A program made the position numbers and the translations under genes. DNA of 64,000 nucleotides, from assembly GCA_949710005.1 (NCBI GenBank), contig OX453274.1, forward strand, positions 9,509,717 to 9,573,716, in the 5' to 3' direction. The notes under the pieces were generated by a model. It was given only the letters and a program-made list of their open reading frames with translations, ran no database searches and was not told the origin of the DNA. Origin of the DNA: Ricordea florida (taxonomy: Eukaryota > Cnidaria > Anthozoa > Corallimorpharia > Ricordeidae). Of this stretch, positions 17,860-35,411 are shown one piece after another (position 1 is the first letter of the stretch; each line of letters opens with the position of its first letter).

Positions 17860-17864
17860 CAATG
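17860..17864. repeat. 5-bp target site duplication, left copy
   Basis: CAATG lies immediately outside the left terminal repeat and is matched by CAATG at 35407-35411. Classical Polintons usually give 6 bp, so 5 bp is slightly unusual. No sixth matching base is present. Confidence 0.8.
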
Positions 17865-18189
17865 AGTAGTTGGAAAAGGCCGGTTCTGGGACAACTTGGG
17901 CGTGGTCGATTTTTTTGGGTGTGGTCGATTTTTGATGTTACGATTTTTTTTGCGAATTCGTGGTTTTGGGTGTGGTCGATTTTGTCAGATGGGCGTGGTC
18001 AAAAGTTTGCGCATAATTAATTGGGTCGAGTCGAGTTTGACTTGTTTGATTTTCGATCGATGTCGAGTGTCGATTTTGTCGTTTGGATCATCGATGTCCT
18101 TTGGGGGGTGGGGTGGGGGTCGAGTTTTTTAAAGTGGGATTTTTGGTCGAGGGCTGTACCGGCTGGCATACGCAAACGAATGGTGAACA
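17865..18189 (+). repeat. Left terminal inverted repeat (325 bp)
   Basis: It pairs with 35083-35406. Visible differences are one T in a T-run near 17910, C versus T near 18153, and T versus C near 18184. Four copies of GGGYGTGGTC start at 17898, 17917, 17968 and 17991, most followed by GATTTT. The inner end reaches the ATG of the left terminal gene. Confidence 0.92.
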
Positions 18190-18737
18190 CACGAATTCAG
18201 TTTGAGAGTTACGATCGTATTTTTCATCACTTCCCTGCAATGGAGGTAATGATTTTTCGACCCGAAGAAGAGTTGAATGTTCATGATTTGATTAAGAGAG
18301 ATGAATGGGAGGTGCGTAGATGGATTCGTAGAAATTACAGGCAGGAAGGTTCAATTTGGTTTTATATTTGTTGCTCTAAAAACCCATGTCTAAGGCCTCT
18401 TACACAAGCGTGTTTTTTGAAGTTTGATGAGACCAAGAGTTTAAAGACGATGGATGATATGGCTAATGATGTATATATTGAAAGATTTGTTGATTTCGAT
18501 TTGGACTACATTATTAAAAGACTACATGAGATCATTATTGAAGACAATGGAGGTAAAGAGCATGTCTATTCCATGAGGGTTGTATTGGAAGACGACGAAG
18601 CCTGGAGGTCTCACAAGAAAACCTTTTACAAGGACTTGGACGATGAGTTGCTTCGTGTTGCTTGGCATCCAAGTCGGGCGGTTGATTGGTGTTTTGACGA
18701 AGATGAGAAAAGCCTCTTGAATGAATTTCTTGAGTAG
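18180..18737 (+). CDS. TIR-linked protein with C-terminal WHPSR motif, left copy
   Basis: The predicted protein has 185 residues, taking the ATG at 18180 inside the terminal repeat. The frame stays open upstream through the repeat, but that extension is repeat sequence. It is acidic and rich in aromatic residues, with no signal peptide or membrane helix. It ends LLRVAWHPSRAVDWCFDEDE. The gene at the other end of the element has the same context and the similar ending AWHPSRFVYWCLD, so the two form a diverged pair. Proteins with a C-terminal HPxR and Trp-Cys block occur in giant-virus families, from general knowledge. The function is unknown. A hairpin at 18756-18780 follows the stop. Confidence 0.75.
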   Translation: MVNTRIQFESYDRIFHHFPAMEVMIFRPEEELNVHDLIKRDEWEVRRWIRRNYRQEGSIWFYICCSKNPCLRPLTQACFLKFDETKSLKTMDDMANDVYIERFVDFDLDYIIKRLHEIIIEDNGGKEHVYSMRVVLEDDEAWRSHKKTFYKDLDDELLRVAWHPSRAVDWCFDEDEKSLLNEFLE

Positions 18738-18755
18738 GTATGTTAAGGGAACACA

Positions 18756-18780
18756 TTTGTGACATGTACCGTGTCACAAA
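18756..18780. terminator. 3' hairpin TTTGTGACA/TGTCACAAA
   Basis: A 9-bp perfect stem with a 7-base loop lies just after the left terminal gene. The same stem design recurs at 33944-33968 and 34504-34530. It is probably a transcript 3'-end signal. Confidence 0.6.
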
Positions 18781-18831
18781 AGTTGAAATATGGTGGTTTA
18801 AGAGTTACAATGTCAGTATATAATTGATGTC

Positions 18832-21800: not shown

Positions 21801-22652
21801 AACAGTTTGAGAGCTAGGGCGGAGAATGATTTCGAAAAGGACTTCTTCAAGTTGATGAACAACTCAGTGTTTGGCAAGACCATGGAGAACATTAGGAAGA
21901 GGGTGGATATCCAGTTGGTCACTGAGGAGAAGAAAGCGCGTAAGTTGATTGTGAAGCCAAACTTCCATCATAGGAACATCTTTTGCGAGGATCTGACCGC
22001 CTTCCACATGAAGAGAACGAAATTGCTCTTTGATAAGCCCATTTACTTGGGGCTGTCCATTCTGGATCTGAGCAAGACAGTCATGTACGATTTCCATTAC
22101 AAGTACATAAAGCCCAAGTATGGGGAGAAGGCCAAGTTGCTGTTCACAGACACGGATTCCTTAGCGTATGTGATAGAGACTGAGGACTTTTACAGGGACA
22201 TCAGTCCAGATGTGAGGGCTAAATTCGACACCAGCAATTACCCCAGGGAGCATCCATCCGGGATTGAGACCGGAGTGAACAAAAAGGTCGGAGGGATGTT
22301 CAAAGACGAGGCTGGTGGTGAACAGATCACGGAATTTGTGGGTCTGAGGGCCAAACTGTATGCTTTCAAGACGGATATGGAGAAGGAAGTCAAGAAGTGT
22401 AAGGGGGTTAACAAGGCAGTAGTCAGCAAAAGCATAAGTTTCCAGGATTACAAGACTTGTCTTTTCAGTGGCCAGTCCCAGAGACGGAAGATGAACACCA
22501 TAAGGAGTCATAGCCATGACATCTATACTGAAACAATTAACAAGATAGCATTATCACGCGAGGACGATAAACGTGTGATAATGGATGACGGGGTAAACAC
22601 GTATGCACATGGTCATTTCAGGACGCTAGAAGGTGGTGATTTGGTGTCTTGA
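18832..22652 (+). pseudogene. polB: Protein-primed family B DNA polymerase (Polinton PolB), broken
   Basis: Replicative polymerase of the element. Two SAP/Rho-N-like repeats lie at residues ~2-31 and 37-70 (both ENLTVK). A C2H2-like finger (YCDNCLNSF...HMEYC) precedes the exonuclease domain, whose Exo I motif ADFEC is at about residue 480. An endonuclease VII-like zinc block (HCHIC, then DHCHFTGRYRG) follows, then Exo II (FHNLSGYD). After the breaks come polymerase motif A (YLDANGLYGYAM), motif B (NNSVFGKTMENI), motif C (FTDTDSLAY) and KLY. A TAG at 20965 interrupts the first frame, which then stays open to 21192. There, a deletion removes the Exo III region and shifts the frame. The rest is open from 21207 to 22652. 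The C-terminus looks complete and overlaps the convergent integrase gene by 40 bp. A working enzyme is not expected from this copy. Confidence 0.92.
21178..21206 (+). other. Deletion junction with TTAGGG-like filler
   Basis: The polymerase frame runs into TTTAGGGATTAGGGATTAGGG and then resumes in another frame at GTTTGTATG. Compared with related polymerases, roughly 20 residues including Exo III are missing. The repeated ATTAGGG unit could be slippage or templated filler at a repaired break, or a short telomere-like insert. Confidence 0.6.
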
Positions 22653-23602
22653 GGTACAAATTGAAGCTCTTCACGAACGAATCCTCGTTTTGGACCACCA
22701 CTCAAATAATACAAGACTGGTTGACCTGGTTCGATTATGGTTCGAGCCAAATCATAGACTTCAAGACTCCATATGGGATCAGTAGCCCTTCGTTTGTCCC
22801 CACCTTCATCTTCGCCGGGGGCATATAGATATCTGACTTGAACATCTGGAGGTAACCTCTTCTCATTCAACCCCACAGGTCGCTTGTAGTCTGGAGTTTT
22901 GGTGTCAATCGAGTCCATTTTCAAAGCTTCGTCAGGCTCTTTTCCAGTAATACGGGTGGTCTCACTGTTGAGGGTTTTCATGATGGCAGGCAGTCTGTTC
23001 ACCCAAACCGTGGATCGGGTATCACTAATCATCTCTTGAGCGTATTGATGGCTGAATAGCTTCTCACCGAGAGTCCTGTTGGCCCTCTCCACAAAAGCTT
23101 GAGCTCTATGATTCCCAGCTTCACTACGCTGGATTGTGACTTGATGCTTTTTCATAAGAGTTGTTACGTCACCCTTGAATTCTGTTCCCGGATCCACCAT
23201 TAATGTTTGTGGCCACTTCAACTTACGGGAATAAATCCGTTGAAAGGCATTGGCAACTTCACCACTCTCCTTTGAGGTCAATGGTTCGGCATCCTTGTAT
23301 CTTGACGCGATATCAATCACGACTAAGGCATAGCGGTATGTTTTTCTTCTCACTGTATCGTGAGGAAGAAACAGCAAGTCCGCTTGATGAATCTGATTAG
23401 GCTTATTCACACTCCAATGTGGCCTGGGTATATACTTGGGGGCCGGGAGGTAAATTTGCCACAAGGCTTGCTTTTCCAACCACTCTTTGGCGACCTTTTC
23501 ACCAACTTTGGCTGCTTTGGCCAATTTGGGTATGGCTGAGTATCCTTTCCAGTATCCATCAGTGGAGTAATACAATCGATTTAAAACGTTAGAATCAGTC
23601 AT
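22613..23602 (-). CDS. int: Retroviral-type integrase of the Polinton
   Basis: The predicted protein has 329 residues and is intact. The rve catalytic core shows D75 (IHQADLL), D137 (MVDPGTEF) and E172 (AFVERANRTLGE), with 34 residues between the last two. The N-terminal part is short and helical, with no clear HHCC zinc site. The C-terminal ~90 residues look like an SH3-like or DNA-binding tail. It joins the element ends to target DNA, producing the 5-bp duplication seen here. It is convergent with the polymerase and divergent from the capsid candidate, with only 27 bp between the two start codons. Confidence 0.92.
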   Translation of the reverse strand: MTDSNVLNRLYYSTDGYWKGYSAIPKLAKAAKVGEKVAKEWLEKQALWQIYLPAPKYIPRPHWSVNKPNQIHQADLLFLPHDTVRRKTYRYALVVIDIASRYKDAEPLTSKESGEVANAFQRIYSRKLKWPQTLMVDPGTEFKGDVTTLMKKHQVTIQRSEAGNHRAQAFVERANRTLGEKLFSHQYAQEMISDTRSTVWVNRLPAIMKTLNSETTRITGKEPDEALKMDSIDTKTPDYKRPVGLNEKRLPPDVQVRYLYAPGEDEGGDKRRATDPIWSLEVYDLARTIIEPGQPVLYYLSGGPKRGFVREELQFVPQDTKSPPSSVLK

Positions 23603-23629
23603 TTACAAACAAGATTATAAGCATTTAAA
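23603..23629. promoter_or_regulatory. 27-bp divergent start region
   Basis: The integrase (minus) and capsid-candidate (plus) ATGs are separated by 27 A/T-rich bases. Each promoter must lie within the opposite gene, or the two share this spacer. This is inferred from spacing only. Confidence 0.4.
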
Positions 23630-24865
23630 ATGGCTTCTATACCAAGCATTCTTGATGTCAATCGCGTTCCAAGAACTCGCGAAGGGTTGAAGGCTATGAC
23701 GTCATTAAATAGAGTCACACTAAACCCATCGTCAGCCGAACCTGGTGAGACGCTGTACATTGAAATACCAAGATTGAGTGAAAATCTTGTGATTGTGCCC
23801 GGTAGCGTCTACATAACCTTTGACATGGTTGTGACCGGGCACAAAGACAACACTCTTGTTAATAATTTGGGAAGGAATCTGATTTCACAGTATAAGGTTC
23901 TATTTGGTGGTGAAGTCGTAGAGGATCTTGGTAGATTTGATTTGTTCAAGACTTACCACGACTTGTTTCTGACCACCGAAGACCGTGAGAATAGATTGAG
24001 ACAGGGCATATCTGATGTTAACATAAGGAGGATTAGGACCAATGCGGGGAACAAAGATACATCAAAAGCAAGGGACAATACTTTAGCTGTGATTCACAAC
24101 ACTAGGTACGCCATTCCATTAGATCACACAATCCTCAAAGATCATGGCGTATTTTATCCAATAGGATTACCCCATCCACTTAGATTTGAATTGACTTTGG
24201 CCAAAGTTTCTGATGTTGTGGTTTATTCAAACCGTGAAGCACCGCCTGATTATAAATTAATAAACATGGAGATGGAGTACCAGTGCATATCAAGCAATTC
24301 TTTGGCAAATCAGGCTGTTACGTCCTACAGTAATGGGAAAGGGTTCACGTATGAAAAGGTACTTCTTCACAAAACCTTCACAATCTCTGAGGCTAATGAT
24401 TCTGTGATAAATCAACATGTCAATGTGCCGAGGAGATCCATGACTGGTATACTATGTCTTTTCACCGCTCCTCATGCAGAAGGCCTCAGGGACTCTGAGA
24501 TTTTTGCAAACCCAAAGATCACGTCAGTCAAGATTGACATAGATGGAGTGCCCAACCAAGTTTATTTGAAAGGGATGATGGCGACTGATTTGTGGCAATC
24601 CGTCATTAAGCGAGTCGGTCTTAGTGATTCAATCGATGAAGCTGATTTCTATACAGATAAGTTCGCTTTGTGGATTGACCTGAGGACTTATCCAGACAAC
24701 GACATCCATGGAAGTGGTTTGTACATTCACGCTACTCGTGATGGGGTGACTTTGGAAATTAAGAGAGAAAAGGTAGGCCCTAGAGTTCTTACGTGTCACA
24801 TGTTTGTTATTGCTGACGCTGTCATGAGCATTGTTAATGGTGGTCTAAAGGAGATTAGATATTAA
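23630..24865 (+). CDS. Putative major capsid protein
   Basis: The predicted protein has 411 residues and is soluble, with many alternating hydrophobic stretches and no membrane helix or signal peptide. Recognisable blocks are NNLGRNLISQYKVLFGGE, LTTEDRENRLRQGI, LDHTILKDHGVFYPIGLPHP, NVPRRSMTGILCLF and DNDIHGSGLY. Closely similar proteins recur in cnidarian genomes next to Polinton-type genes, from memory. Its size, position beside the packaging ATPase and beta-rich look fit a double jelly-roll capsid protein. I do not see the long hexon of classical Polintons, so the call is inferred. A structure prediction showing two jelly rolls would settle it. Confidence 0.6.
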   Translation: MASIPSILDVNRVPRTREGLKAMTSLNRVTLNPSSAEPGETLYIEIPRLSENLVIVPGSVYITFDMVVTGHKDNTLVNNLGRNLISQYKVLFGGEVVEDLGRFDLFKTYHDLFLTTEDRENRLRQGISDVNIRRIRTNAGNKDTSKARDNTLAVIHNTRYAIPLDHTILKDHGVFYPIGLPHPLRFELTLAKVSDVVVYSNREAPPDYKLINMEMEYQCISSNSLANQAVTSYSNGKGFTYEKVLLHKTFTISEANDSVINQHVNVPRRSMTGILCLFTAPHAEGLRDSEIFANPKITSVKIDIDGVPNQVYLKGMMATDLWQSVIKRVGLSDSIDEADFYTDKFALWIDLRTYPDNDIHGSGLYIHATRDGVTLEIKREKVGPRVLTCHMFVIADAVMSIVNGGLKEIRY

Positions 24866-24880
24866 GCCGCTGTATGGTTT

Positions 24881-24907
24881 TCTTCTCACGGTTTCATGAG
24901 AAGAAAC
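24881..24907. terminator. Hairpin after the capsid candidate
   Basis: TTCTTCTCA and TGAGAAGAA form a stem with a short loop 20-40 bp after the stop codon. It may be a 3'-end signal. The stem sequence differs from the TTTGTNAC hairpins at the element ends. Confidence 0.45.
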
Positions 24908-24937
24908 ATCAATCTAAAGGGATTCATGTAGTGAGTA

Positions 24938-25576
24938 ATGATGAACGAACTCAAAGATTTGATTCCATTCAATTGCATCATCACTGGTCCAACGAATTGC
25001 GGAAAGACCCAATACATAGTGGAACAGCTTCGAGGTCACTATAGGCAAGTGTTTGATTATATTGTGTTGATTTGCCCAACATATGCCCATAACAAGACGT
25101 ATAGAGGCTTTGCCAAGGGGGACAAACGATTCTTTGTACTGTCGCCAGATGCGAGTGATCATGACGAAATCAACAATTTGTTGATGGACTGTGAATCGTT
25201 CTTCTCGGGTACCAGTACACTCCTAATATTGGACGACTGTGCCGTTTCCAAGGATCTGAAGAATAGGTCCAACAAATTCATCGGTTTGGCATTCTCTGGG
25301 AGACACGTAGGGATATCGGTCTGGGTTCTCACTCAGCAATTGACATCTATAGCCAAACCATTCCGTGAAAATGTAGCTTGTGTGGTCTCATTCCACAATC
25401 CATCTCAAACGGCGATGAAGATGCTTTTCGAGGATTACGGCGGGGACCTGGATGCTGAAACGTGTAAGAAACTCAAGAAGCATCTTATGAATGAAAAGTA
25501 TGCCAGGCTGTGCTTCTCCCTCAGACATCCATTCCAAAATTATTTAGAGATACCGGCCCTGACGTCACAACCATGA
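24938..25576 (+). CDS. A32-like genome-packaging ATPase
   Basis: The predicted protein has 212 residues. Walker A is GPTNCGKT at residues 17-24, Walker B is TLLILDDC at about residue 100, and a sensor-like WVLTQQ follows. This fits the FtsK/HerA-type packaging ATPases of Polintons, virophages and large DNA viruses, which pump DNA into the capsid. The second Met is also possible. The stop overlaps the next ATG as ATGA at 25573-25576. It appears intact. Confidence 0.9.
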   Translation: MMNELKDLIPFNCIITGPTNCGKTQYIVEQLRGHYRQVFDYIVLICPTYAHNKTYRGFAKGDKRFFVLSPDASDHDEINNLLMDCESFFSGTSTLLILDDCAVSKDLKNRSNKFIGLAFSGRHVGISVWVLTQQLTSIAKPFRENVACVVSFHNPSQTAMKMLFEDYGGDLDAETCKKLKKHLMNEKYARLCFSLRHPFQNYLEIPALTSQP

Positions 25577-26105
25577 CAACTCCCGAAGAAATCATGAATG
25601 GTGAAACTGTAGTGGTGGAACAATCGTTGATGATGTGAAAGCTAAAAGAGAAGAGCTGGCAATACTAGCTTCTCTCGGCTCCAGCAAGGAGTATCTTGGC
25701 GTTCAGATGGCTCTAGGTGATGTCCACAGATTGTCGGATAGGGATGTCGAGAAGTACTACAAGAGGTACAAGATGGTGTCTGGTAAGAATGTGGCTGAAG
25801 GACTAATTGATCCTCCTTTCCATCTATTGGCCAGACTAGTCAACTGGTCTCTTAGTAGTTACGGTGGAATAGATGATCCAGATGCTTTGGTAAAGGATTG
25901 GAAGAACAACCAGTTGATCAAGCAGTCGCTGTCAGAATATTCTGGTTCAATCGTAGTACATGGTGGTGCGATTGTTACGTTATTGATAATAGCCATTACC
26001 GCTCTCAAGCATTTCAGACTAAAAGAGCCTAGTCCTCCCACTAGATTGTATGACATGGCCAACACGGATGAAGATTGGGGTGAGGGCGTCGACACTGTTC
26101 GGTGA
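25573..26105 (+). pseudogene. Membrane-anchored protein, frameshifted
   Basis: The ATG at 25573 overlaps the ATPase stop and opens MTTPEEIMNGETVVVEQ, but stops at 25636-25638. A second frame beginning around 25629 (DDVKAKREELAILASLG) continues for about 155 residues with no ATG of its own. The simplest reading is one gene with a single-base indel near 25627, or a programmed frameshift. The body has a basic helical region and a membrane helix near the C-terminus (IVVHGGAIVTLLIIAITAL), then a short acidic tail. The function is unknown; a virion membrane protein is possible. Confidence 0.55.
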
Positions 26106-26167
26106 AAAAATTGAAATTGGAAGTGGAAGGGTCAGGTGTGAAGGCATACTCGAAAGAGATCGAAAAC

Positions 26168-26977
26168 ATGTCTCAGAGAACAAACTCAACTTCCTCAAAT
26201 GGTTCAATGACGTCACTGAAAACTCTTTTTGTACCCATGGACGCGGATGACTTCGATTGGGACGTTATTGAGATAGAAGCTCCAGTGAAGAAAGGCAACT
26301 ACTCATTTTCGAGACTTATTGTTCGGGATGGCGATGGTGAAGCCTGCAATCTAGCTTTCCAATTGGCTGACCAAAACATATTTGGCCTCAAATGGAACAA
26401 TGGTCCTGAGAACAAAAAGCCCAAGTCTGGTATCAAGTTCACCTATTTGCTGCGCGACGATGAAACTCGATCCAGGTTTGACACCATCATAGACAAAGTA
26501 GCTCTTGCCATTAAGAAATTCTACGCTGATGAGACTATTCGTAAGAACATGCCCAAATTAAGTAAAATCCAGCTTGACACTATGAAGAAAGGGTCTACAA
26601 TTGATTTGATCAAACCATCGTATACCACAAATGAAAACGGCAATACATGTGTATACCCTGAATTCAACACAAGTGGAAGTGGTCCCAACTTGAAAAACTA
26701 CACATCATTCAGAGGTCGAAAGAAGAGTGACCGGTGGATTGATTACATTCCGACCGATGCAGATGATGATAGTACAAGGGCATGTGCAACAGTTTCATTG
26801 AGGATCAAAGGAATAACATTTGGTGCTTGTGGGACTGGGATGAGTTGTATGGCCAATGTGAAGTATGTGGTCCAAGCCATTAAACTAAGAAAGCCTATGG
26901 AAGAAGTAAAGGTCGAAGAGGACGATGTTTTCGCAGACATGTCCGACGAAGAAGACTCTGAGGAAAATGATGAGTAG
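26168..26977 (+). CDS. Putative ssDNA-binding protein with acidic tail
   Basis: The predicted protein has 269 residues from the first ATG (MSQRTNSTSS). The frame is open further upstream but without ATG. It is a compact globular protein with beta-rich segments (NYSFSRLIVRDGDG, ACATVSLRIKGITFGACG) and aromatic and basic patches. The C-terminal ~25 residues are very acidic (DVFADMSDEEDSEENDE). An OB-fold-like body with a disordered acidic tail is typical of viral SSBs, including the DUF2738 type of large DNA viruses. This match is by layout, not a firm family hit. It would coat DNA during strand-displacement replication. Confidence 0.5.
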   Translation: MSQRTNSTSSNGSMTSLKTLFVPMDADDFDWDVIEIEAPVKKGNYSFSRLIVRDGDGEACNLAFQLADQNIFGLKWNNGPENKKPKSGIKFTYLLRDDETRSRFDTIIDKVALAIKKFYADETIRKNMPKLSKIQLDTMKKGSTIDLIKPSYTTNENGNTCVYPEFNTSGSGPNLKNYTSFRGRKKSDRWIDYIPTDADDDSTRACATVSLRIKGITFGACGTGMSCMANVKYVVQAIKLRKPMEEVKVEEDDVFADMSDEEDSEENDE

Positions 26978-27031
26978 GAATGTTGGCAGTAAAGGGTAAG
27001 AAGAAATAAGGGTTGGGTGGGATCTGACAGT

Positions 27032-27087
27032 TTCCTAGTATGCAACTTACTAGGAGACTTAAAGCTAACAATAGATTAACTCACAAC
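27032..27087 (+). promoter_or_regulatory. Duplicated leader with hairpin, copy 1
   Basis: TCCTAGTA and TACTAGGA form a stem, followed by CTTAAAGCT and GATTAACTCACAAC just before the ATG. The same ~60-bp arrangement precedes the next gene (27507-27568). It is probably a promoter or 5' leader copied with the gene. Confidence 0.55.
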
Positions 27088-27492
27088 ATGTCTGAACAAG
27101 AAGTGCAAACTAAAGAGTCTGGTGTTGAAAGAACCAACAAGAAAATCGCATATGGTGCTCTCAAGAAGCAGGATAATGGGGGTATAAGCATATACTTGTT
27201 TACGGGAGATTTTGGGGAAGTAAAGACTTGTGATTGCATGGATCTAGTGGAGGCACTAGCCAATGTAGTTGTAAAGATGAGAAATGATAGTAGATTGAAG
27301 TTTGCCTATGTGATTGTAAATGATGATGGTATATTTTTTCGCTTTGAATCGAGTGAGAATGAAGTAAAGTATATACATTTCAGAGACGGGAAGGAAGTGT
27401 TTTCAAATCTGCCAGCGCCAAAGACTAATCTAGTGAAAAGATTAGCAACTGTAGCTGTAATTGCAACCACAGTTTGGTTACTAATCTTTTAG
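27088..27492 (+). CDS. Small tail-anchored protein
   Basis: The predicted protein has 134 residues. I chose the ATG at 27088 (MSEQEVQTKE) because the next gene starts at the equivalent position after the same leader. The in-frame ATG at 27040 falls inside the hairpin. A globular N-terminal part with an alternating beta pattern is followed by a C-terminal membrane helix (LATVAVIATTVWLLIF), so it is likely tail-anchored. No family was recognised. It begins a run of single-helix membrane proteins. Confidence 0.65.
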   Translation: MSEQEVQTKESGVERTNKKIAYGALKKQDNGGISIYLFTGDFGEVKTCDCMDLVEALANVVVKMRNDSRLKFAYVIVNDDGIFFRFESSENEVKYIHFRDGKEVFSNLPAPKTNLVKRLATVAVIATTVWLLIF

Positions 27493-27506
27493 TATAAATG
27501 TTTACT

Positions 27507-27568
27507 CTCCTAGTATACAACTTACTAGGAGTCTTAAAGCTTACGGTAGATTAACTCACAACGACAGT
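27507..27568 (+). promoter_or_regulatory. Duplicated leader with hairpin, copy 2
   Basis: CTCCTAGTA and TACTAGGAG form a 9-bp stem, followed by TCTTAAAGCT and GATTAACTCACAAC, ahead of the ATG at 27569. It matches copy 1 (27032-27087) at most positions. Confidence 0.55.
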
Positions 27569-27985
27569 ATGTCTGAAGAAACAAGTCAGGTTGAGCAAAT
27601 CACTAGAGAGCCTTCTGTCAAAACCAAGGTCAAAGACCCCAAGAGAGTTCAGGCTGGTAAAACGTTATCGGAAAAGAACAAGAGAGCCAGAGAGGCTTTG
27701 AAACGTGAAGAGGAAAGGGAGAAGAAAGAGAGTGAAAAGGAAGAGGATAAGGGTAGTTCTGGTGGTGGGAGAGGTGGTTGGATGCCGTCCCAAACTATCT
27801 TTTTAGCCATAGGTGCAATTGGCCTCGCCGCCTATAGCCTATGGACCAACTATCGAGACAGGATACCTGACTTGCATTTTCCGCCCATTACATTGAAATC
27901 GAAACCATCGCAGCCCAAAGTCACAGAAAGTCCGCCCGTGGCCAGCAAAGCAGAGGAAACCGATTTAAAAGATGATGTGTTATGA
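27569..27985 (+). CDS. Single-helix membrane protein, charged N-terminus
   Basis: The predicted protein has 138 residues. A long Lys/Glu-rich helical N-terminal region and a Gly/Ser linker (SSGGGRGG) precede a membrane helix (TIFLAIGAIGLAAYSLW). A Pro-rich and then acidic C-terminal tail follows. The start MSEETSQ resembles MSEQEVQ of the preceding gene. It may be a virion membrane or scaffold protein; no family was recognised. Confidence 0.65.
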   Translation: MSEETSQVEQITREPSVKTKVKDPKRVQAGKTLSEKNKRAREALKREEEREKKESEKEEDKGSSGGGRGGWMPSQTIFLAIGAIGLAAYSLWTNYRDRIPDLHFPPITLKSKPSQPKVTESPPVASKAEETDLKDDVL

Positions 27986-27991
27986 TTCAAA

Positions 27992-28213
27992 ATGGTGGAG
28001 AATAAGCTCGTAAAGACAGTTACTGGCTCTGCAGTGCTCGTTGGTTTGTCGGCTGGGATGGGCTGGCTTGGCAAAAAGATTCTCAAGGAATCATTCATCG
28101 GTGACCCATCGACCAGTATCATGAACTATGCCAAATGGGTAGGCGTGCTCACTATAGCTATGTATGGCAAAACCTATTTAGAGGATCAGAAGATACTACC
28201 CACAAGTGTTTGA
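27992..28213 (+). CDS. Small membrane protein
   Basis: The predicted protein has 73 residues and begins 6 bp after the preceding stop. It has a glycine-rich hydrophobic stretch at residues ~7-25 (TGSAVLVGLSAGMGWLG) and a second weaker one at ~45-60. It may be a holin-sized or minor virion membrane protein. The function is unknown. Confidence 0.55.
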   Translation: MVENKLVKTVTGSAVLVGLSAGMGWLGKKILKESFIGDPSTSIMNYAKWVGVLTIAMYGKTYLEDQKILPTSV

Positions 28214-28215
28214 AC

Positions 28216-28596
28216 ATGCCTTTGAGTTTCACTGAAGCAATTAAAGATGCTCAAACTGATTACATTATTGATCTTATGAGACACATAAGACAATCATACG
28301 TTAATGCTTTACATGAAACTGAGTATCTCTCTGTTGCGAGAAATTCAGAGGTTGAAATCGACCCCATGCCAAGTAACAGAGAGCTTATCGAATGGTATTT
28401 CAAACTTGGAAATAGACAATTTAATTATGCCAATGAGCCTAGACTGGCAAGCTATCTTTTGAGAGATATGAATAAGGATCTTGATGAGACCAACAAAAAG
28501 GCCGCAGAACAACCACGACGAGGCCTACACCCATTTACGTTTGGAGTGTTGACACTGATCGCATTATACATAGGCTTGAAATTGTTTAAGAAGTAG
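28216..28596 (+). CDS. Tail-anchored protein
   Basis: The predicted protein has 126 residues. I chose the ATG at 28216 (MPLSFTEAIKDAQ), two bases after the preceding stop; the longer frame upstream overlaps that gene. The N-terminal ~95 residues are helical and charged. The C-terminus is a membrane helix (FTFGVLTLIALYIGLKLF) with a two-Lys end. The function is unknown. Confidence 0.65.
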   Translation: MPLSFTEAIKDAQTDYIIDLMRHIRQSYVNALHETEYLSVARNSEVEIDPMPSNRELIEWYFKLGNRQFNYANEPRLASYLLRDMNKDLDETNKKAAEQPRRGLHPFTFGVLTLIALYIGLKLFKK

Positions 28597-28612
28597 GACA
28601 ACAAATGGATAA

Positions 28613-29017
28613 ATGGCGACTATAGCAATCATGCTTGGAGGGGCAGTCCTCAAAGCAACAGCCTTCATTGGTGGAAACTATTTAGCAAAGGTCATTAGCG
28701 GCTCGTCTTCTACCGATCTCCAACTTGAAAGGGAGAGGCATGACAAAGCCATGGAGAAGTACCAGAAAGACTATGCTGCTTATCAAGAGAGACGAATGGC
28801 TTATATTGACTTTGAGAACCGTAGGAAGGGTGACGAGAACCAAGCCTCTGAGAACATATCAAAGACGGATGAAGCGCTAAGATTGTACAATCAAATGGGC
28901 AATCCTCCCAAATTCTCAGACTATTACCGACCCAATTCAGATCAAAAGACTGGAGAAATGGTTTATGTTTCTGTTGGGATGTTAGCCTTGGGATACATTG
29001 CCAGCAAATGGATATAG
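28613..29017 (+). CDS. Membrane protein with central coiled coil
   Basis: The predicted protein has 134 residues. It has hydrophobic segments at both ends (residues ~4-28, and VYVSVGMLALGYIASKWI at the C-terminus). Between them is a charged helical region (ERERHDKAMEKYQKDY) that could form a coiled coil. Its last 10 bases overlap the RPB6-like gene. The function is unknown; a virion-membrane role is inferred from context. Confidence 0.65.
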   Translation: MATIAIMLGGAVLKATAFIGGNYLAKVISGSSSTDLQLERERHDKAMEKYQKDYAAYQERRMAYIDFENRRKGDENQASENISKTDEALRLYNQMGNPPKFSDYYRPNSDQKTGEMVYVSVGMLALGYIASKWI

Positions 29018-29253
29018 TAACAATCCATGAATATGTTCGTTTGATAGGATCCAGAGCTGAGCAATTGAAGATGGGCAGTAAACCAGTGATAGACTGGCCA
29101 TTTCATCTCAATCCTATAGCCATTGCCAAGAGTGAACTCAAACAACGCGTTTTACCCCTTGCTATAATCAGGAAAATACCAGACTGTAATTCAAAGACTG
29201 GTTTCCGCGATGAAGTGTGGGACCCAAACGACATGCGTATACGAGACCACTAA
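29008..29253 (+). CDS. RPB6/omega-like RNA polymerase subunit
   Basis: The predicted protein has 81 residues. TIHEYVRLIGSRAEQLKMGS closely follows the RPB6/RpoK/omega signature (Thr/Ser, aromatic, Glu, Arg, hydrophobic-Gly, Arg-Ala, Gln-hydrophobic). Downstream, NPIAIAKSEL, LPLAIIRKIPD and a late Trp (DEVW) match the order of the second conserved block. It is shorter than cellular RPB6, lacking the acidic N-terminal region. RPB6 folds the largest subunit of RNA polymerases and is encoded by several large DNA viruses. No large polymerase subunit is present here, so it may act with the host enzyme or compete with host RPB6. Confidence 0.75.
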   Translation: MDIVTIHEYVRLIGSRAEQLKMGSKPVIDWPFHLNPIAIAKSELKQRVLPLAIIRKIPDCNSKTGFRDEVWDPNDMRIRDH

Positions 29254-29289
29254 AATCAATTTAGAAAGCTGCCATATTCAACTTCAAAT

Positions 29290-30228
29290 ATGGCAACTGG
29301 TTATGATGATCCCGTTTTGGATCCGACTACACTAAATGAGGCAGGTGATGGTGATGATGGGGATGATACACTTTACTTGAGCCCAATCACAAAGACATCC
29401 ACCACTCGTCTCCCTGATGATGAAGAGGAGGAAGCCTCTTTCGGTGGTATTGATGAAACTCGGCCCTTATTGATTGGGGAGATGGAAATAGAACAAGAGG
29501 AAGCCTGGGCCAAGATTAGATCAAGATTCCCCAAAGTTGATACGTCCAAGTTTACAGCCAGGCTGAATCAATTCAAACAAGTAGTCGTCAAATTGATGAG
29601 GAAAGGATCAAAACCCTACGTGTTATTCAAAGGTGATGATGAATTGAATGATGGATTGCCGGACACCATCAAAAATAGTCTAGGACCAAAAGCAGAAGAG
29701 GTTGTGGAAGCTAATGATAGTGTGATCGCTGAGAAAAAGGGATTACTCACCAAAATGAAGGAGACGCTAAGATTCCACAGGGACAAACCGCTGAAGACCC
29801 CAGAGGAAGAAAGTAACATAGAGACTCTGGAGAGGGAAATCGGCGAGCAGGAGGAAGAGATAGCCAATTTGGAGGGTGAGAATGAAGAGATACAGGAACG
29901 AATGTCGTTGCGGGATCATGTGAAGGCCATCTTCAAGAAATACGGATTCACAGTCTTTGCTGTCATGAGTGCCGTTGGAGTGGTCATTGGTGTCATAGTC
30001 TCCAACCTCTCCAAAGGGCTCTCGAAATTGGGCAAAGGTGTTGGTGATGGACTAAAAACTCTTGGGAAGAAACTTGGCGAATTGCTGCCTGGGATGGTGG
30101 GCGCTATTGTAAGCTTTCTGTTCAAGACTGCTGGAGAGGTCGTCTCATTCCTAGGGAAACATGCTTGGCTGTTAATAATGGCAGTTGTGCTTTACTTCAT
30201 AGAAGAGTTAAAAAGGAAACGTAAATGA
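29290..30228 (+). CDS. Coiled-coil membrane protein
   Basis: The predicted protein has 312 residues. The N-terminal ~70 residues are acidic and likely disordered. A helical region follows, with a strong coiled coil near residues 160-205 (EREIGEQEEEIANLEGENEE). The rest is hydrophobic: a helix (FTVFAVMSAVGVVIGVIV), a Gly/Lys-rich amphipathic segment (LSKLGKGVGDGLKTLGKKLG) and two more hydrophobic stretches to a basic end. Proteins with this layout recur in cnidarian Polinton-like copies, from memory. It could be a membrane-remodelling or penetration protein, but that is speculative. The stop overlaps the next ATG (ATGA at 30225). Confidence 0.65.
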   Translation: MATGYDDPVLDPTTLNEAGDGDDGDDTLYLSPITKTSTTRLPDDEEEEASFGGIDETRPLLIGEMEIEQEEAWAKIRSRFPKVDTSKFTARLNQFKQVVVKLMRKGSKPYVLFKGDDELNDGLPDTIKNSLGPKAEEVVEANDSVIAEKKGLLTKMKETLRFHRDKPLKTPEEESNIETLEREIGEQEEEIANLEGENEEIQERMSLRDHVKAIFKKYGFTVFAVMSAVGVVIGVIVSNLSKGLSKLGKGVGDGLKTLGKKLGELLPGMVGAIVSFLFKTAGEVVSFLGKHAWLLIMAVVLYFIEELKRKRK

Positions 30229-30413
30229 ATCAAATGAAGAGCTATTGTGTCAAAGAGAAAAAGCTGACTGATTGTGTACCTGGTAGTGAAACCTTTGCCA
30301 AAACAGCCAAAGGAAGGCCGATGATGAAGTGTAAATGTTCCAGCTGTGGCATCATCAAAACTCGATTCCTCTCAGATGCTGACTATAGAAATTTAAAGAT
30401 GACGAAGAAGTAA
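30225..30413 (+). CDS. Small zinc-ribbon-like protein (DUF5679-like)
   Basis: The predicted protein has 62 residues and is basic. An N-terminal KSYCVKEKK, a GRPMMKCKC middle and a CSSCG knuckle followed by KTRFL follow the order of the short DUF5679-type proteins of Polinton-like viruses, adintoviruses and large DNA viruses. The first knuckle has only one clear Cys (a Lys stands at the usual second site), with another Cys a few residues on. It may be a small core or DNA-binding protein. Confidence 0.65.
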   Translation: MNQMKSYCVKEKKLTDCVPGSETFAKTAKGRPMMKCKCSSCGIIKTRFLSDADYRNLKMTKK

Positions 30414-30422
30414 TCAAACAAC

Positions 30423-31055
30423 ATGTTGAGCATTACTATGAACGAGTCTGAAGCCAGGGTTTATTTGGATCCCCCATTGGAAGAGGTTCGGGAGATCCAA
30501 CTCCTCGACTGTATTGTACCCAAACGATTGGTCAACTTCAAAGATCGACAGGGCTTTCTCAAGGAGGATAATCGACCCATCTTAATAGTTCAACCCGGTA
30601 CATACTCTCTACGTGGCATACACGCAATCCTTCTGAACGATACGGATAACGCCAAGCTGTCTATCGTTGAGACTGACACCGTTGATTACCTGTACTCCAA
30701 CAAGACGTTCAACATTAAACTCACAAGAGGTCTCCAAGTTGCTCTTGGGGTGCCTGAAACCGTAACCCCTGGAAAGCTGTACCCCATAAACATACAGACT
30801 AAGGAGCCGCTGAGACTTTTGTGTAGTCTAGTGGACAATAAGTCGTCATATGTGAATGAGACTAAGTATGGAGGACTCGTGAAACTCTCGCCTTCCCACC
30901 TCCTTGCCAACATACCATCACAGGATTATCCAACCGTTCCAGTCCAAAACCATGAGAGTATCCTAACCCACTTCGATTTAAGCATCCTCGACATTGGATG
31001 GAAGAAACTTGATCTGAAGGGTTCCCCCATCACATTCAGTTTACGATTCAGATAA
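30423..31055 (+). CDS. Putative minor capsid (penton-type) protein
   Basis: The predicted protein has 210 residues, with no membrane helix. It is predominantly beta-like, with short alternating segments (EIQLLDCIVPKRL, SLRGIHAILL, FNIKLTRGLQVALGVP, and a C-terminal LKGSPITFSLRFR). The size and an ending typical of jelly-roll minor capsid proteins suggest the penton. It sits between the zinc protein and the glycine-rich membrane protein. This call rests on layout; fold prediction would confirm or reject it. Confidence 0.5.
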   Translation: MLSITMNESEARVYLDPPLEEVREIQLLDCIVPKRLVNFKDRQGFLKEDNRPILIVQPGTYSLRGIHAILLNDTDNAKLSIVETDTVDYLYSNKTFNIKLTRGLQVALGVPETVTPGKLYPINIQTKEPLRLLCSLVDNKSSYVNETKYGGLVKLSPSHLLANIPSQDYPTVPVQNHESILTHFDLSILDIGWKKLDLKGSPITFSLRFR

Positions 31056-31086
31056 CATCTTAAAAGTAAGTGATGTTCACTCCAAA

Positions 31087-31686
31087 ATGGAAGTATATAA
31101 GGCGATTTACCCCAACTTGGAAGCCACTGCACCTCCCCCTGATGGACCATCATTCAGACTTCAGCAATGTTGTGATGCCCTGAACAAGCTAAAGTCTGAA
31201 TTAAACCACTACGAGACAGTACTCAAAAAATACAACCGATCAAAGGGCACACTCATGAATGTAAGCTCGACCTGTGGTATACTGTCTTGCGTCTTGGCGG
31301 CTGGTGGATTGGGCACATCGCTTAGTGGTGTCGGAATCGTCGCATCTGTGCCATTGGGTGTGGTAAGTGGTGTATTTGTATGCGCCTCCATAGCGTGTCA
31401 ACAAATATCCAAGAGACTGTCCCAGAAAGCTGTGAAGCACCAAAACACCATCACATTGGCCAGATCCAAGATAAACACCATTGAAGACCTGGTTTCCAAA
31501 GCCCTTCGTGACAATACGATATCCGACTCAGAATTCTCGTTGATCATGGACGAACTCAAGAAATTCGAAAAGCTCAAGGCCGAGATACGAGCTAAGGCTC
31601 AAAAAAATGTGAGTGGAGAGGACCCATTGGTGTTGAGGCAGAGAGTACGCAACGAAATCCTCAAAGAACTAAAAGGAGGACCATAA
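31087..31686 (+). CDS. Helical protein with central hydrophobic region
   Basis: The predicted protein has 199 residues. The N-terminal helix (LNKLKSELNHYETVLKKY) and C-terminal helices (MDELKKFEKLKAEIRAK) flank a Gly/Ala/Val-rich hydrophobic block at residues ~58-105 (LAAGGLGTSLSGVGIVAS, VPLGVVSGVFVCASIACQ). It resembles pore or fusion-type helical hairpins in layout. Homologues are common in cnidarian repeats, from memory. The function is unknown. Confidence 0.6.
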   Translation: MEVYKAIYPNLEATAPPPDGPSFRLQQCCDALNKLKSELNHYETVLKKYNRSKGTLMNVSSTCGILSCVLAAGGLGTSLSGVGIVASVPLGVVSGVFVCASIACQQISKRLSQKAVKHQNTITLARSKINTIEDLVSKALRDNTISDSEFSLIMDELKKFEKLKAEIRAKAQKNVSGEDPLVLRQRVRNEILKELKGGP

Positions 31687-31756
31687 CTATCATATATGAG
31701 CATAACAAATACTAATGCCAATAAGCTTAAAGGGAATACATACTAATAACATAACC

Positions 31757-31939
31757 ATGGAAAACAGCCAAACTGAAAATCAATTGAAGTGTGATTTGGC
31801 AAAAGCAGAAGAAAATATTGAAATACTGGAAGAAGATATTGAAAAAATAAAATACACATTAAATTTTGGAGTAAAAATTTTGACGGTGTATGGTTTGATT
31901 AGATTTTTTCGTGTCATGTCGTCAGCCCTTCTTGATTAA
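31757..31939 (+). CDS. Small coiled-coil membrane protein
   Basis: The predicted protein has 60 residues from the ATG at 31757 (MENSQTENQL). An earlier in-frame ATG at 31715 adds 14 residues. An acidic coiled coil (CDLAKAEENIEILEEDIEKI) is followed by a membrane helix (FGVKILTVYGLIRFF). The function is unknown. Confidence 0.5.
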   Translation: MENSQTENQLKCDLAKAEENIEILEEDIEKIKYTLNFGVKILTVYGLIRFFRVMSSALLD

Positions 31940-31983
31940 TGTTTTAAAAGTTTGAACTCTTCTACCCAAATTCTGGATAGAAG

Positions 31984-33519
31984 ATGGGCTTACTCAATGA
32001 CTTCAGAAATAGGTACCAAAAGGCTGATCGTGACCAATTCGTATTTGTGGATGATCAATATGGGGGTTACATTAGATGGAAACATAACGGTATGACAATC
32101 ATGTCCTATGATGATCCCACTGGCAAGACATGGACTGATGGGATGCGACCAGGTTTGAAATCGCGACTCTGGATTGATCTTGGACTGGCCGCCCTGAACT
32201 CGTTCCCACCAAGCTTAACCATGACCAAACGATACTACCCGATACCCACCGTTGACTTTGACAGCCCCACCAGTAACACCACAAGTATGCTGACCTCGCT
32301 GGACATATACGTGTCCAATACGAAGAAATTCACCGCCAAGATGCGTAATGTTTTCACCTCCCAAGTTGTAACTTTCAAGTTTGGGAAGCAAAGTCGAAAG
32401 TGGTTGAACGCCCCCGACATGAACTACTGGCCACAACAACTGAACTTTGCAGTGTGGTGTGCGACCGCTGGCTGTGGGATTAGCCCCTTCGAGAGCCTCA
32501 ACTACCCCAAAGTCGTGAGCGGCTTCATCAAGTTTCATGTGTATTTCACCGTAAGACGAATATTGTATGAACTGAGCCTTCCGCTGCCTGATGAGCAACC
32601 CTTTGTAATCAACAACAACCCTTACAGCAAGGTCGCATATCAACGATTATGCGCTGAATTTGGCATCTCAAACAACTCTGATTTCAGATGGAAAGGTGGA
32701 CGAAACGGGGGTTTGGGTGACATATTCATCGATTATGGGGCTGGATACCATGGAGTAGGTGGAGGATACCAAAACGTCCATATGGTAAGAAATTACGACA
32801 AAGATGCTGATCAATGGCCTGGTGAAGGTGGCAAATTCGCTGATGATGGGGGTAAAAAAGAAAAGGGTGACCTCATCTCATTCATCCGTAATGATGACTT
32901 TGCTGATTACAAGTATGCTTGGTTCATACCAACGAGTGGCTATGGACTCACTAAAGCTGGACTTGGCAGGTTGAATCGATCTGCTGAAGCCTTTGTTTAC
33001 TGTGTGTTGGGGGCTCAAGTCAACACTAGAAACTCGATTGTGGGCACTGGTGGTGGAGCAATTGAGACTCAACAAGAATTCTTGGCCCTGTTTGAGAGTA
33101 GTGTGATCGAGAATGACATTTCGAGTTCGATCCAAAGGTATCAACTGGCCACTCAAGAAGCTAAATTAAGGCTTGATTTGGCCATTGTTCCTGGAGTGTG
33201 GTTGATGCCCAGTAACATGATCATAAACACAGAGAGTGTGATCGGGTATAACAACAACCTCATGAAGGCCACTGATGAGATGAAATTTGGTGTCAACACA
33301 AACATAAACCTGGAGACTAAGACTGTGGGGATCAACCATAATCTGGGGTCTTCAAAGGTCAAGTTGCCACATGCAATTGTAGAGACTAAACGTTCAACAA
33401 CAACACCAACGATTCATCCTCGTACAGAAATCAAAGAAGAAACAAATACCAATCATGAAACCAACCTGATACTGTTAATCGTTGGAGTTGGAATTGCCGC
33501 TTGGCTGCTCTTCAGATAA
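31984..33519 (+). CDS. Large conserved virion-type protein with C-terminal anchor
   Basis: The predicted protein has 511 residues. The N-terminal ~200 residues are beta-like with many aromatics (MLTSLDIYVSNTKKFTAKM, YWPQQLNFAVWCATAGCG, FHVYFTVRRILYEL). A Gly/Asp-rich middle follows (GGRNGGLGDIFIDYGAG), then a helical segment (AIETQQEFLALFESSV), a Thr-rich stalk (~450-490) and a C-terminal membrane helix (LILLIVGVGIAAWLLF). It is the largest protein after the polymerase. The likely place is the virion surface or inner membrane. An alternative capsid role cannot be excluded. No enzymatic motif was seen. Confidence 0.6.
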   Translation: MGLLNDFRNRYQKADRDQFVFVDDQYGGYIRWKHNGMTIMSYDDPTGKTWTDGMRPGLKSRLWIDLGLAALNSFPPSLTMTKRYYPIPTVDFDSPTSNTTSMLTSLDIYVSNTKKFTAKMRNVFTSQVVTFKFGKQSRKWLNAPDMNYWPQQLNFAVWCATAGCGISPFESLNYPKVVSGFIKFHVYFTVRRILYELSLPLPDEQPFVINNNPYSKVAYQRLCAEFGISNNSDFRWKGGRNGGLGDIFIDYGAGYHGVGGGYQNVHMVRNYDKDADQWPGEGGKFADDGGKKEKGDLISFIRNDDFADYKYAWFIPTSGYGLTKAGLGRLNRSAEAFVYCVLGAQVNTRNSIVGTGGGAIETQQEFLALFESSVIENDISSSIQRYQLATQEAKLRLDLAIVPGVWLMPSNMIINTESVIGYNNNLMKATDEMKFGVNTNINLETKTVGINHNLGSSKVKLPHAIVETKRSTTTPTIHPRTEIKEETNTNHETNLILLIVGVGIAAWLLFR

Positions 33520-33545
33520 AAATTGAAATTGCCAAACCATAGATC

Positions 33546-33929
33546 ATGGCCTCGCAGATCATGACATCATTGGCAATCGTTGGCAGCAGATACTTCAATG
33601 ACATGTCCTTCTTGAAAGAGCAAATACGTAAAGCCCTCAAGAAATGGAAGCTGGATCTCTCAGACATACAATTGATTGTGTCTGGGGGTGCAGAAGGAGT
33701 TGATGAACTGGCCAGAGATTTTGCAGTTGAAAAGGAGATCCCATTCGAAGCGTTTGAACCTCAATGGGACTATTATGGCAAGGCGGCTGGGCCAATTCGC
33801 AATAGGCAGATCATGGAGTGTGCAACGCATGTATTGGCCTTGCCTTCTTGTATTTACTCACCAGGTACCAAATCCGCTATTAAGTTGGCTAGGAAATACA
33901 AAAGAGAGGTTATAGTCGTTTATGTCTAA
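33546..33929 (+). CDS. SLOG-superfamily (DUF2493/YspA-like) protein
   Basis: The predicted protein has 127 residues. The Rossmann-type N-terminal AIVGSRYFND and the signature VSGGAEGVDELARDFAVE are followed by WDYYGKAAGPIRNRQI and a late GTKSAIKLA. This is the DprA-Smf/LOG-like layout of DUF2493/SLOG proteins. These bind or cleave nucleotide-derived ligands and occur in bacteria and phages, often in defence or counter-defence contexts. Its role in a eukaryotic element is unknown. It is followed by a hairpin (33944-33968) and then the convergent Cys-repeat gene. Confidence 0.8.
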   Translation: MASQIMTSLAIVGSRYFNDMSFLKEQIRKALKKWKLDLSDIQLIVSGGAEGVDELARDFAVEKEIPFEAFEPQWDYYGKAAGPIRNRQIMECATHVLALPSCIYSPGTKSAIKLARKYKREVIVVYV

Positions 33930-33943
33930 TGATTAAGTGAACT

Positions 33944-33968
33944 TTTGTAACGTGAAGCGCGTTACAAA
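33944..33968. terminator. Hairpin TTTGTAACG/CGTTACAAA
   Basis: A 9-bp perfect stem with a 7-base loop lies between the convergent SLOG and Cys-repeat genes. The same TTTGTNAC design occurs at 18756-18780 and 34504-34530. Being palindromic, it could serve both strands. Confidence 0.65.
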
Positions 33969-33982
33969 TGTCTTTGGATCCC

Positions 33983-34459
33983 TCACAAAGGCCCACACTT
34001 TTCACAATCCTTTCGTAGCTTAACATGACGACAAACATACTCTCCACTACACAAATGACACATCCATTTCTTATTATTAGTCTTAATTCTACCATGTTTA
34101 CAATAACGATGAGGGCTACACACTTTACAATGACCTCTCTGTCTATCATGTAGGCAGATACCTGCACCGAGACATTCTCTACAATAATACTTTGATCTGC
34201 CATGTTGGCAAATTCCAGCACCACCACATTCTTTACACCAATACTTTTGCTTACCATGTTGACAAATTCCAGCACCACCACATTCTTTACACGCTGATTT
34301 TTGTCGACTATGTAGGCAGATACCTGCACCAGGGCATTCTTTACAATGGTATTTATGTCTGCCATGTTGACATATACCTGCACCACCGCACTCTTTACAA
34401 TAAAACTTTTGCTTACCATATGGACATCGTTTTCTTGGTTTCGCTTGATCACAATCCAT
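33983..34459 (-). CDS. Cys/His repeat protein (CKECGGAGICQHG repeats)
   Basis: The predicted protein has 158 residues made of about seven repeats of ~19 residues. Each has C-x2-C, five residues (mostly GGAGI), C-x-H, then a basic linker, with one degenerate unit near the C-terminus. The regular Cys/His spacing implies zinc binding. Similar CKECGG-type repeats occur in algal, protist and giant-virus proteins, from memory. The fit to the EsV-1-7 motif spacing is only partial. A DNA/RNA-binding or regulatory role is inferred. Confidence 0.8.
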   Translation of the reverse strand: MDCDQAKPRKRCPYGKQKFYCKECGGAGICQHGRHKYHCKECPGAGICLHSRQKSACKECGGAGICQHGKQKYWCKECGGAGICQHGRSKYYCRECLGAGICLHDRQRGHCKVCSPHRYCKHGRIKTNNKKWMCHLCSGEYVCRHVKLRKDCEKCGPL

Positions 34460-34503
34460 TGTGTATATACCACCACACTACAACCACCGACCATCCATTA
34501 CAC

Positions 34504-34530
34504 TTTTGTAACACGCTCCATGTTACAAAA
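34504..34530. terminator. Hairpin TTTTGTAACA/TGTTACAAAA
   Basis: A 10-bp perfect stem with a 7-base loop lies between the 3' end of the right terminal gene and the 5' end of the Cys-repeat gene, both on the minus strand. It belongs to the same family as 18756-18780 and 33944-33968. Confidence 0.65.
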
Positions 34531-34543
34531 ATATCATGCATGA

Positions 34544-35092
34544 TTACCAATGAGTCCCCCAACGCTCCTTCACCTCTTGAAACTCTTCCAAATCAAGACA
34601 CCAATAAACAAATCTACTTGGATGCCATGCTACAGACATTAGTTCTACCCAAATTTCATTTCGGAAAATACGCCATTGTTCGCCCTTCCAAACCTCATGC
34701 AACAACTCGTCTTTGAAACTGATGTACACGTTAACTATAAGATCTCCGATAAGAAGGCCATCGACAGAATATGGCCGTTCGAGGTCAGCGTCCATCATAC
34801 CAAACAGAGCTAAATCTTCAGCGCCCTTACATAAGTTCTCGGCGATGTCTTTGACAGACAACTTGTCAAAGTCTTTCGAATATTCATAAACAATCTCGTT
34901 GTCGTCAATAGGAAAATGGGCCATGGTAAAAACAAGACGAACCTTCTCAACCAACCATGGGTTGAAACTAGACACTCTATATAATATGCTTGATTTGTAC
35001 TCTTCCAGAAAATCATAAACTCCTAAACAGTCCACGTTGTCATAGAGAAAGCTAAATAACGTTGGCATTCTCATATCATCCATGTTCGCCAT
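34544..35092 (-). CDS. TIR-linked protein with C-terminal WHPSR motif, right copy
   Basis: The predicted protein has 182 residues from the ATG at 35092 (MANMDDMRM), which lies inside the right terminal repeat at the position equivalent to the left gene's ATG. It is acidic and helical, with no membrane helix. It ends LMSVAWHPSRFVYWCLDLEE, matching AWHPSRAVDWCFDEDE of the left gene, while the rest is strongly diverged. The longer open frame upstream is repeat sequence. The function is unknown; both copies probably use promoters inside the repeats. Confidence 0.75.
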   Translation of the reverse strand: MANMDDMRMPTLFSFLYDNVDCLGVYDFLEEYKSSILYRVSSFNPWLVEKVRLVFTMAHFPIDDNEIVYEYSKDFDKLSVKDIAENLCKGAEDLALFGMMDADLERPYSVDGLLIGDLIVNVYISFKDELLHEVWKGEQWRIFRNEIWVELMSVAWHPSRFVYWCLDLEEFQEVKERWGTHW

Positions 35093-35406
35093 TCGTTTGC
35101 GTATGCCAGCCGGTACAACCCTCGACCAAAAATCCCACTTTAAAAAACTCGACCCCCACCCCACCCCCCAAAGGACATCGATGATCCAAACGACAAAATC
35201 GACACTCGACATCGATCGAAAATCAAACAAGTCAAACTCGACTCGACCCAATTAATTATGCGCAAACTTTTGACCACGCCCATCTGACAAAATCGACCAC
35301 ACCCAAAACCACGAATTCGCAAAAAAAATCGTAACATCAAAAATCGACCACACCCAAAAAATCGACCACGCCCAAGTTGTCCCAGAACCGGCCTTTTCCA
35401 ACTACT
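35083..35406 (-). repeat. Right terminal inverted repeat (324 bp)
   Basis: It is the reverse complement of 17865-18189 with about two substitutions and one single-base indel. It carries four GGGYGTGGTC motifs on the minus strand and ends CCAACTACT before the CAATG duplication. Confidence 0.92.
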
Positions 35407-35411
35407 CAATG
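35407..35411. repeat. 5-bp target site duplication, right copy
   Basis: CAATG matches 17860-17864. Confidence 0.8.

Follow-up and report, generated by a model that had tools for sequence, protein, structure and literature searches.

What could a small virus-like element do with one subunit of a multi-subunit RNA polymerase? This question is raised by an 81-codon open reading frame (ORF) at 29008-29253 on the forward strand of a 64,000-nucleotide stretch of the Ricordea florida genome (contig OX453274.1, positions 9,509,717 to 9,573,716; the window below). The ORF encodes an RNA polymerase subunit of the RPB6/RpoK family without the N-terminal tail and lies in a Polinton of 17.5 kb. The viruses known to encode polymerase subunits are large and bring the complete enzyme; in this element, a single subunit has been retained under selection.

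Identity of the 81-residue protein

A sequence-only reading of the window had placed an RPB6-like gene at this position, and its position, strand and size agree with ours. The RPB6 motifs quoted there were found in the protein, which starts with T-I-H-E-Y. The homology, also proposed there, is carried by sequence matches beyond chance. A phmmer search of the PDB gave a best E-value of 3.5e-7, and every one of the 27 distinct sequences at E <= 1e-4 was RPB6/RPABC2, RpoK/Rpo6 or C147L of African swine fever virus (ASFV), the match to the latter reaching residue 78 of 81. Both family models scored under their curated cut-offs with significant E-values: PF01192 with 21.3 bits (E 2.8e-4, cut-off 26) and the NCBIfam RpoK model NF002208 with 48.1 bits (E 9.4e-13, cut-off 57). 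PF01192 was matched at E <= 0.01 by 27 of the 30 members of the alignment of relatives, the 81-residue protein included. In the test of RPB6/RpoK homology, the profile built from 30 relatives gave E 8.4e-16.

The predicted structure bears out the expected RPB6 fold. It was superposed on human RPB6 (6ted_F) with 1.0 A over 74 residues at 32% identity, and the Polinton protein most likely folds like the cellular RPB6 core. In the Foldseek search of the PDB, ASFV took the top rank; by Z it was level with animal RPB6 as a structural match. The search of BFVD gave 23 fold matches at E <= 1e-3 with 24-38% identity, 19 of them named and belonging to giant viruses, an asfa-like virus and an ascovirus, the other four being unnamed. 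A functional viral RPB6 is our preferred reading of the gene, with a chance about equal to that of the other readings together.

Copies in the genome and selection

The 538-Mb assembly holding the window was searched with the protein. Among 374 candidates the best 150 all matched, at 80-100% identity, and three of these had an internal stop; the genome contains at least 150 copies of the gene. Because the best 150 were picked by protein score, elements were also chosen by their capsid gene. For at least 51 of the best 101 of 6126 capsid candidates, RPB6 followed downstream in the same orientation at a distance of up to 15 kb. This pairing is a lower bound, the RPB6 side being the best 150 of 374, and it was found for none of the 31 candidates at ranks 71-101.

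In all 20 elements taken from capsid ranks 2-40, RPB6 lay between the same two neighbours, so the gene is not missing from all related elements, where the sequence-only reading had proposed to look for it. The upstream neighbour, orf134 (28613-29017, forward strand), overlaps the start of RPB6 by 10 nt and was intact in 20 of 20 copies. The downstream neighbour, orf312 (29290-30228, forward strand; a coiled-coil membrane protein by eye), follows after 36 nt and was intact in 17 of the 20. In 18, RPB6 itself read through without a stop for 90% or more of its length. Ten elements from capsid ranks 42-72 gave another picture: full RPB6 was present in two (L104, L105) and missing from six (L106, L108, L110-L113), and L109 was unrelated sequence. 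In L107, an insertion starting with AAT repeats breaks RPB6 after about residue 39. RPB6 is regular cargo in one group of this genome's Polintons and missing from a related clade, which could not be seen from the window alone.

The 80 copies compared (the 20 best and 60 of the next 130) had a median ratio of nonsynonymous to synonymous divergence (dN/dS) of 0.16 in RPB6, for pairs with dS above 0.1. The median dS was 0.34, the pooled ratio of the corresponding polymorphisms (pN/pS) was 0.20, and one copy of the 80 had a stop. The window and the 20 capsid-chosen copies gave a median dN/dS of 0.17 and a pooled ratio of 0.21; medians for other genes of the element ranged from 0.04 (ATPase) to 0.30 (orf73). 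In the 80 copies, 37 of the 81 positions were invariant, including R16, A17, G23, P26, I39, A40, E43 and P50. The low dN/dS and the invariant residues therefore indicate that the gene has been in use, at least while the element spread.

Absence from one clade and probable exchange of alleles

In the six elements without RPB6, the end of orf134 is separated from the start of orf312 by 37-38 nt, and the junction is nearly identical. In a tree of the short flanks (89 rows, 81 of them different, some places occurring twice; midpoint rooting), RPB6-minus elements form one clade (support 96/81) that holds five of the six minus loci. Eighteen loci with at least one flank missing are not in the tree, nor are a few others, such as L106, in which a flank was too short. 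In sixteen of the RPB6-plus copies left out, a diverged orf312 follows RPB6, and the gene is therefore equally placed in more distant elements. The simplest explanation is that the minus clade lost the gene once; a single gain would still be allowed, strictly speaking, given the midpoint rooting.

In the 20 capsid-chosen copies and the window, dS of RPB6 is about twice that of the neighbouring genes (0.34 vs 0.12-0.18). Of the four 60-nt bins of RPB6, two had a diversity of 0.16 and 0.15 and the other two 0.04 and 0.07; outside the gene it was 0.02-0.08. Across 2016 pairs, divergence in RPB6 was almost uncoupled from that in the flanks (r 0.14), and nine pairs with near-identical flanks were near-identical in RPB6 too. 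The raised dS and the weak tie to the flanks suggest that the elements probably exchange their RPB6 alleles through recombination.

Other genes of the element vary as well. In the 20 copies L084-L103, orf291 (26102-26977) falls into two classes, with nine copies at 38-41% identity and the others at 82-95%, as does orf153 (28135-28596), with four at 35-41% and the others at 75-91%. No match was found for orf150 in 10 and for orf74 in 11 of these copies. Several genes therefore seem to be swapped as cassettes.

Relatives and the N-terminal tail

Nine close relatives of the protein (P0002-P0009 and the fragment P0032) were found, with longest contigs of 8-29 kb. The 22 more distant ones (P0010-P0031) share 41-60% identity and have longest contigs of between 944 and 534,407 bases; the few large contigs among them could be those of large viruses or host chromosomes. 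For both P0032 and a capsid relative at 85% identity (P0082), the longest contig has 14,254 bases. A scan of a genome contig collection gave three archaeal RpoK loci at 36%. A viral contig collection searched with the RPB6 and ATPase queries gave no relative; its share of eukaryotic viruses is uncertain, so this is no evidence of absence.

In the RPB6 tree, P0001-P0031, minus the truncated P0007, form a group of 36 rows (99/95) with six copies from this genome, set apart from four eukaryotic RPB6, from archaeal RPB6 and from P0034-P0052, with P0041 among the archaeal rows. The alignment has few columns and carries a warning of long branches meeting. A recent capture from the host is disfavoured by this tree, which, besides these limits, does not hold the host's own RPB6.

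The tail before the core has 22-71 residues in 21 of the 22 distant relatives, P0013 being the exception, and mostly starts with an acidic-aromatic stretch such as DDFIEI (by eye). In the clade holding the Polinton copy, it has 2-10 residues and no aromatic residue in all eight rows; of these rows, Polinton context was seen for the protein of the window alone.

The surrounding element

The location of the gene inside a Polinton, as the sequence-only reading had it, is upheld by inverted repeats, an integrase, a packaging ATPase and a borderline capsid match. The element occupies 17865-35406. Its terminal inverted repeats lie at 17865-18189 (forward strand, inner limit from the repeat search) and 35083-35406 (reverse strand). 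Two pairs of complementary arms were found, 17911-18189/35083-35361 (279 nt, 99% complementary) and 17860-17918/35353-35411 (59 nt, 97%). A 5-bp direct repeat, CAATG, read by eye, stands beside both outer ends (17860-17864 and 35407-35411). Polintons produce a 6-bp target-site duplication.

On the reverse strand, an rve-type integrase is encoded at 22613-23602 (PF00665, E 1.2e-7, 32.4 bits, 0.2 under the cut-off of 32.6; PHROGs transposase, 1e-8). A putative major capsid protein (23630-24865, forward), expected in Polintons to be of the double-jelly-roll type, matched PF16903 Capsid_N at E 3.9e-5 with 23.7 bits, 0.3 under the cut-off of 24. It has 445 relatives, with PF16903 in eight among the 120 listed, and many at 53-63% identity sit on large contigs; a tblastn search of phage records with it gave no match. 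The A32-type packaging ATPase (24938-25576, forward; PF04665, E 2.3e-11) scored above the cut-off.

The ORF at 18832-20967 (forward) has SAP/Rho_N and endonuclease VII-like parts by Pfam and PHROGs and is tentatively read as the 5' portion of a DNA polymerase gene split in two. The ORF at 21207-22652 (forward) shows by eye the motifs YLDANGLYG, KLMNNSVFGKT and DTDSL, which resemble those of family-B polymerases, and is presumably the 3' part. Neither ORF had a significant polymerase match in Pfam or PHROGs, nor did the second in the PDB, searched with that ORF only.

The Pfam scan took in 19 proteins of the element, the ORFs at 27569-27985, 27992-28213 and 31715-31939 being left out. No other polymerase subunit was matched among the 19, which agrees with the earlier statement that a large subunit is lacking. 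No maturation cysteine protease was matched in these proteins either, and short or diverged forms could escape the scan. Among upstream k-mers of 20 genes none stood out as a common promoter motif, and no promoter of giant-virus type is claimed.

At 33546-33929 (forward) a SLOG-family protein (YspA/DprA-like; PF10686, E 4.4e-11; PF02481, E 9.7e-8) is encoded, matched in 16 of 20 copies, some of these being cut at the end of the stretch. The ORFs at 18021-18737 (forward) and 34544-35251 (reverse) start inside the left and right inverted repeats and have their first part in common; they end in alike motifs (AWHPSR..WC), differ otherwise and have no significant Pfam match. A cysteine-rich repeat protein at 33983-34459 (reverse) consists of CKECGGAGICQHG units and is without a Pfam match. 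Outside the element, RecQ-like helicase fragments (40447-42248; PF00270, PF00271) lie near a DUF6589 protein (44082-45848) and a zf-AD protein (46498-47484).

Possible function and alternatives

A Polinton with RPB6 but no other recognised RNA polymerase gene suggests that the subunit acts on a polymerase made elsewhere. Since no large subunit was recognised in the element, that polymerase would come from the host or a helper. The Polinton RPB6 would dock on a largest subunit that the element does not bring and would replace the resident RPB6 or compete with it. The partner would most probably be the host nuclear RNA polymerase II (Pol II), favoured because the element is integrated in a chromosome; this choice has, in our view, an even chance of being right.

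According to PMC8754651, human RPB6 binds p62 of TFIIH through its tail; such a tail is missing from most bacterial omega and archaeal RpoK, and yeasts survive without much of it. A tailless core should therefore still assemble. A polymerase with the tailless subunit would keep its assembly and lose the contact with p62, and this loss could shift its output in favour of transcribing the element itself. The earlier proposal that the protein recruits or redirects host RNA polymerase would be compatible with such a scheme. What counts against host Pol II as the partner is that polymerase subunits of Nucleocytoviricota accompany cytoplasmic replication (PMC10962738). The broader proposal, that this lineage uses a tailless, often-exchanged RPB6 as a single-subunit tool reprogramming or poisoning host Pol II or the polymerase of a rival giant virus, is tentative and would more probably fail than hold.

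The main rival to docking on host Pol II is that RPB6 serves a co-infecting large DNA virus, which would transcribe the element virophage-like, the subunit fitting or steering its polymerase. The 19 named BFVD matches come from the giant viruses, asfa-like virus and ascovirus given above, ASFV is first in the Foldseek ranking of the PDB and the protein groups away from cellular RPB6. Virophage genes need the transcription machinery of a giant virus, and polymerase subunits are packaged in the virions of giant viruses (PMC11464507). However, the element has no known helper, the best identity among the BFVD matches at E <= 1e-3 is 38% and no upstream k-mer stood out as a promoter motif common to its genes; this explanation is considered unlikely, if the best placed of the alternatives.

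Somewhat less probable is a decoy role, in which the tailless subunit would be built into a host or rival-virus polymerase and reduce its activity, as superinfection exclusion or host protection. The retained core and short tail agree with it, and the doubled dS with its weak tie to the flanks might fit exchanged alleles and favoured variety. Exchange between lineages, however, accounts for the dS without conflict, pairs with near-identical flanks are near-identical in RPB6 as well, and the low dN/dS gives no sign of positive selection over the whole gene.

A moonlighting or virion protein, keeping the RPB6 fold without meeting a polymerase any longer, is more doubtful still. The gene sits in a cluster of small proteins (27569-30228) resembling membrane or coiled-coil proteins by eye, and it may share its expression with the overlapping orf134; the signature residues of cellular RPB6, which one would expect a new function to have relaxed, are retained. 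A decaying, functionless relic of a captured set of polymerase genes, one sense of the remnant named in the sequence-only reading, would fit one subunit alone and a clade without the gene, but is contradicted by purifying selection and by RPB6 being intact in nearly all copies looked at, and is very improbable. As a statement of remote origin, the word remnant may still apply.

If docking on a host or helper enzyme is true, transcription would be controlled in a small virus-like element by exchanging one small subunit. RPB6-plus and RPB6-minus clades within one genome form a natural experiment that makes the idea testable. The finding also bears on the gene trade between Polintons and large DNA viruses. 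No report of RPB6 was found in the literature on Polintons within a search that most subscription papers lay outside. A 2024 study of stony-coral polintoviruses may report this gene.

Comparison with known systems

Cellular RPB6/RPABC2 and archaeal RpoK (PF01192) have the core fold and the signature in common with the Polinton protein. The eukaryotic form carries an acidic N-terminal tail that is missing here; the two fall into separate tree groups, and the Polinton gene lies on a mobile element without other recognised subunits. C147L of ASFV and the RPB6 of giant viruses are viral, as is the Polinton form. These viruses encode whole polymerases (ASFV by its core structures, megavirus subunits in PMC11464507), whereas the Polinton has one recognised subunit.

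Polintons/Mavericks (polintoviruses, adintoviruses) share with the element the inverted repeats, the rve integrase, the A32-type ATPase and the capsid at the border of PF16903. Their conserved set, as given in PMC4028283, names no polymerase subunit, whereas this element carries RPB6. All but one of the Polinton-like viruses (PLV) are without an RVE integrase, as stated in PMC4642659, and the element differs from them in having one at 22613-23602. Virophages of the mavirus type are, like the element, small, capsid-encoding and able to integrate, and virophage genes rely on the transcription machinery of a giant virus (PMC11464507).
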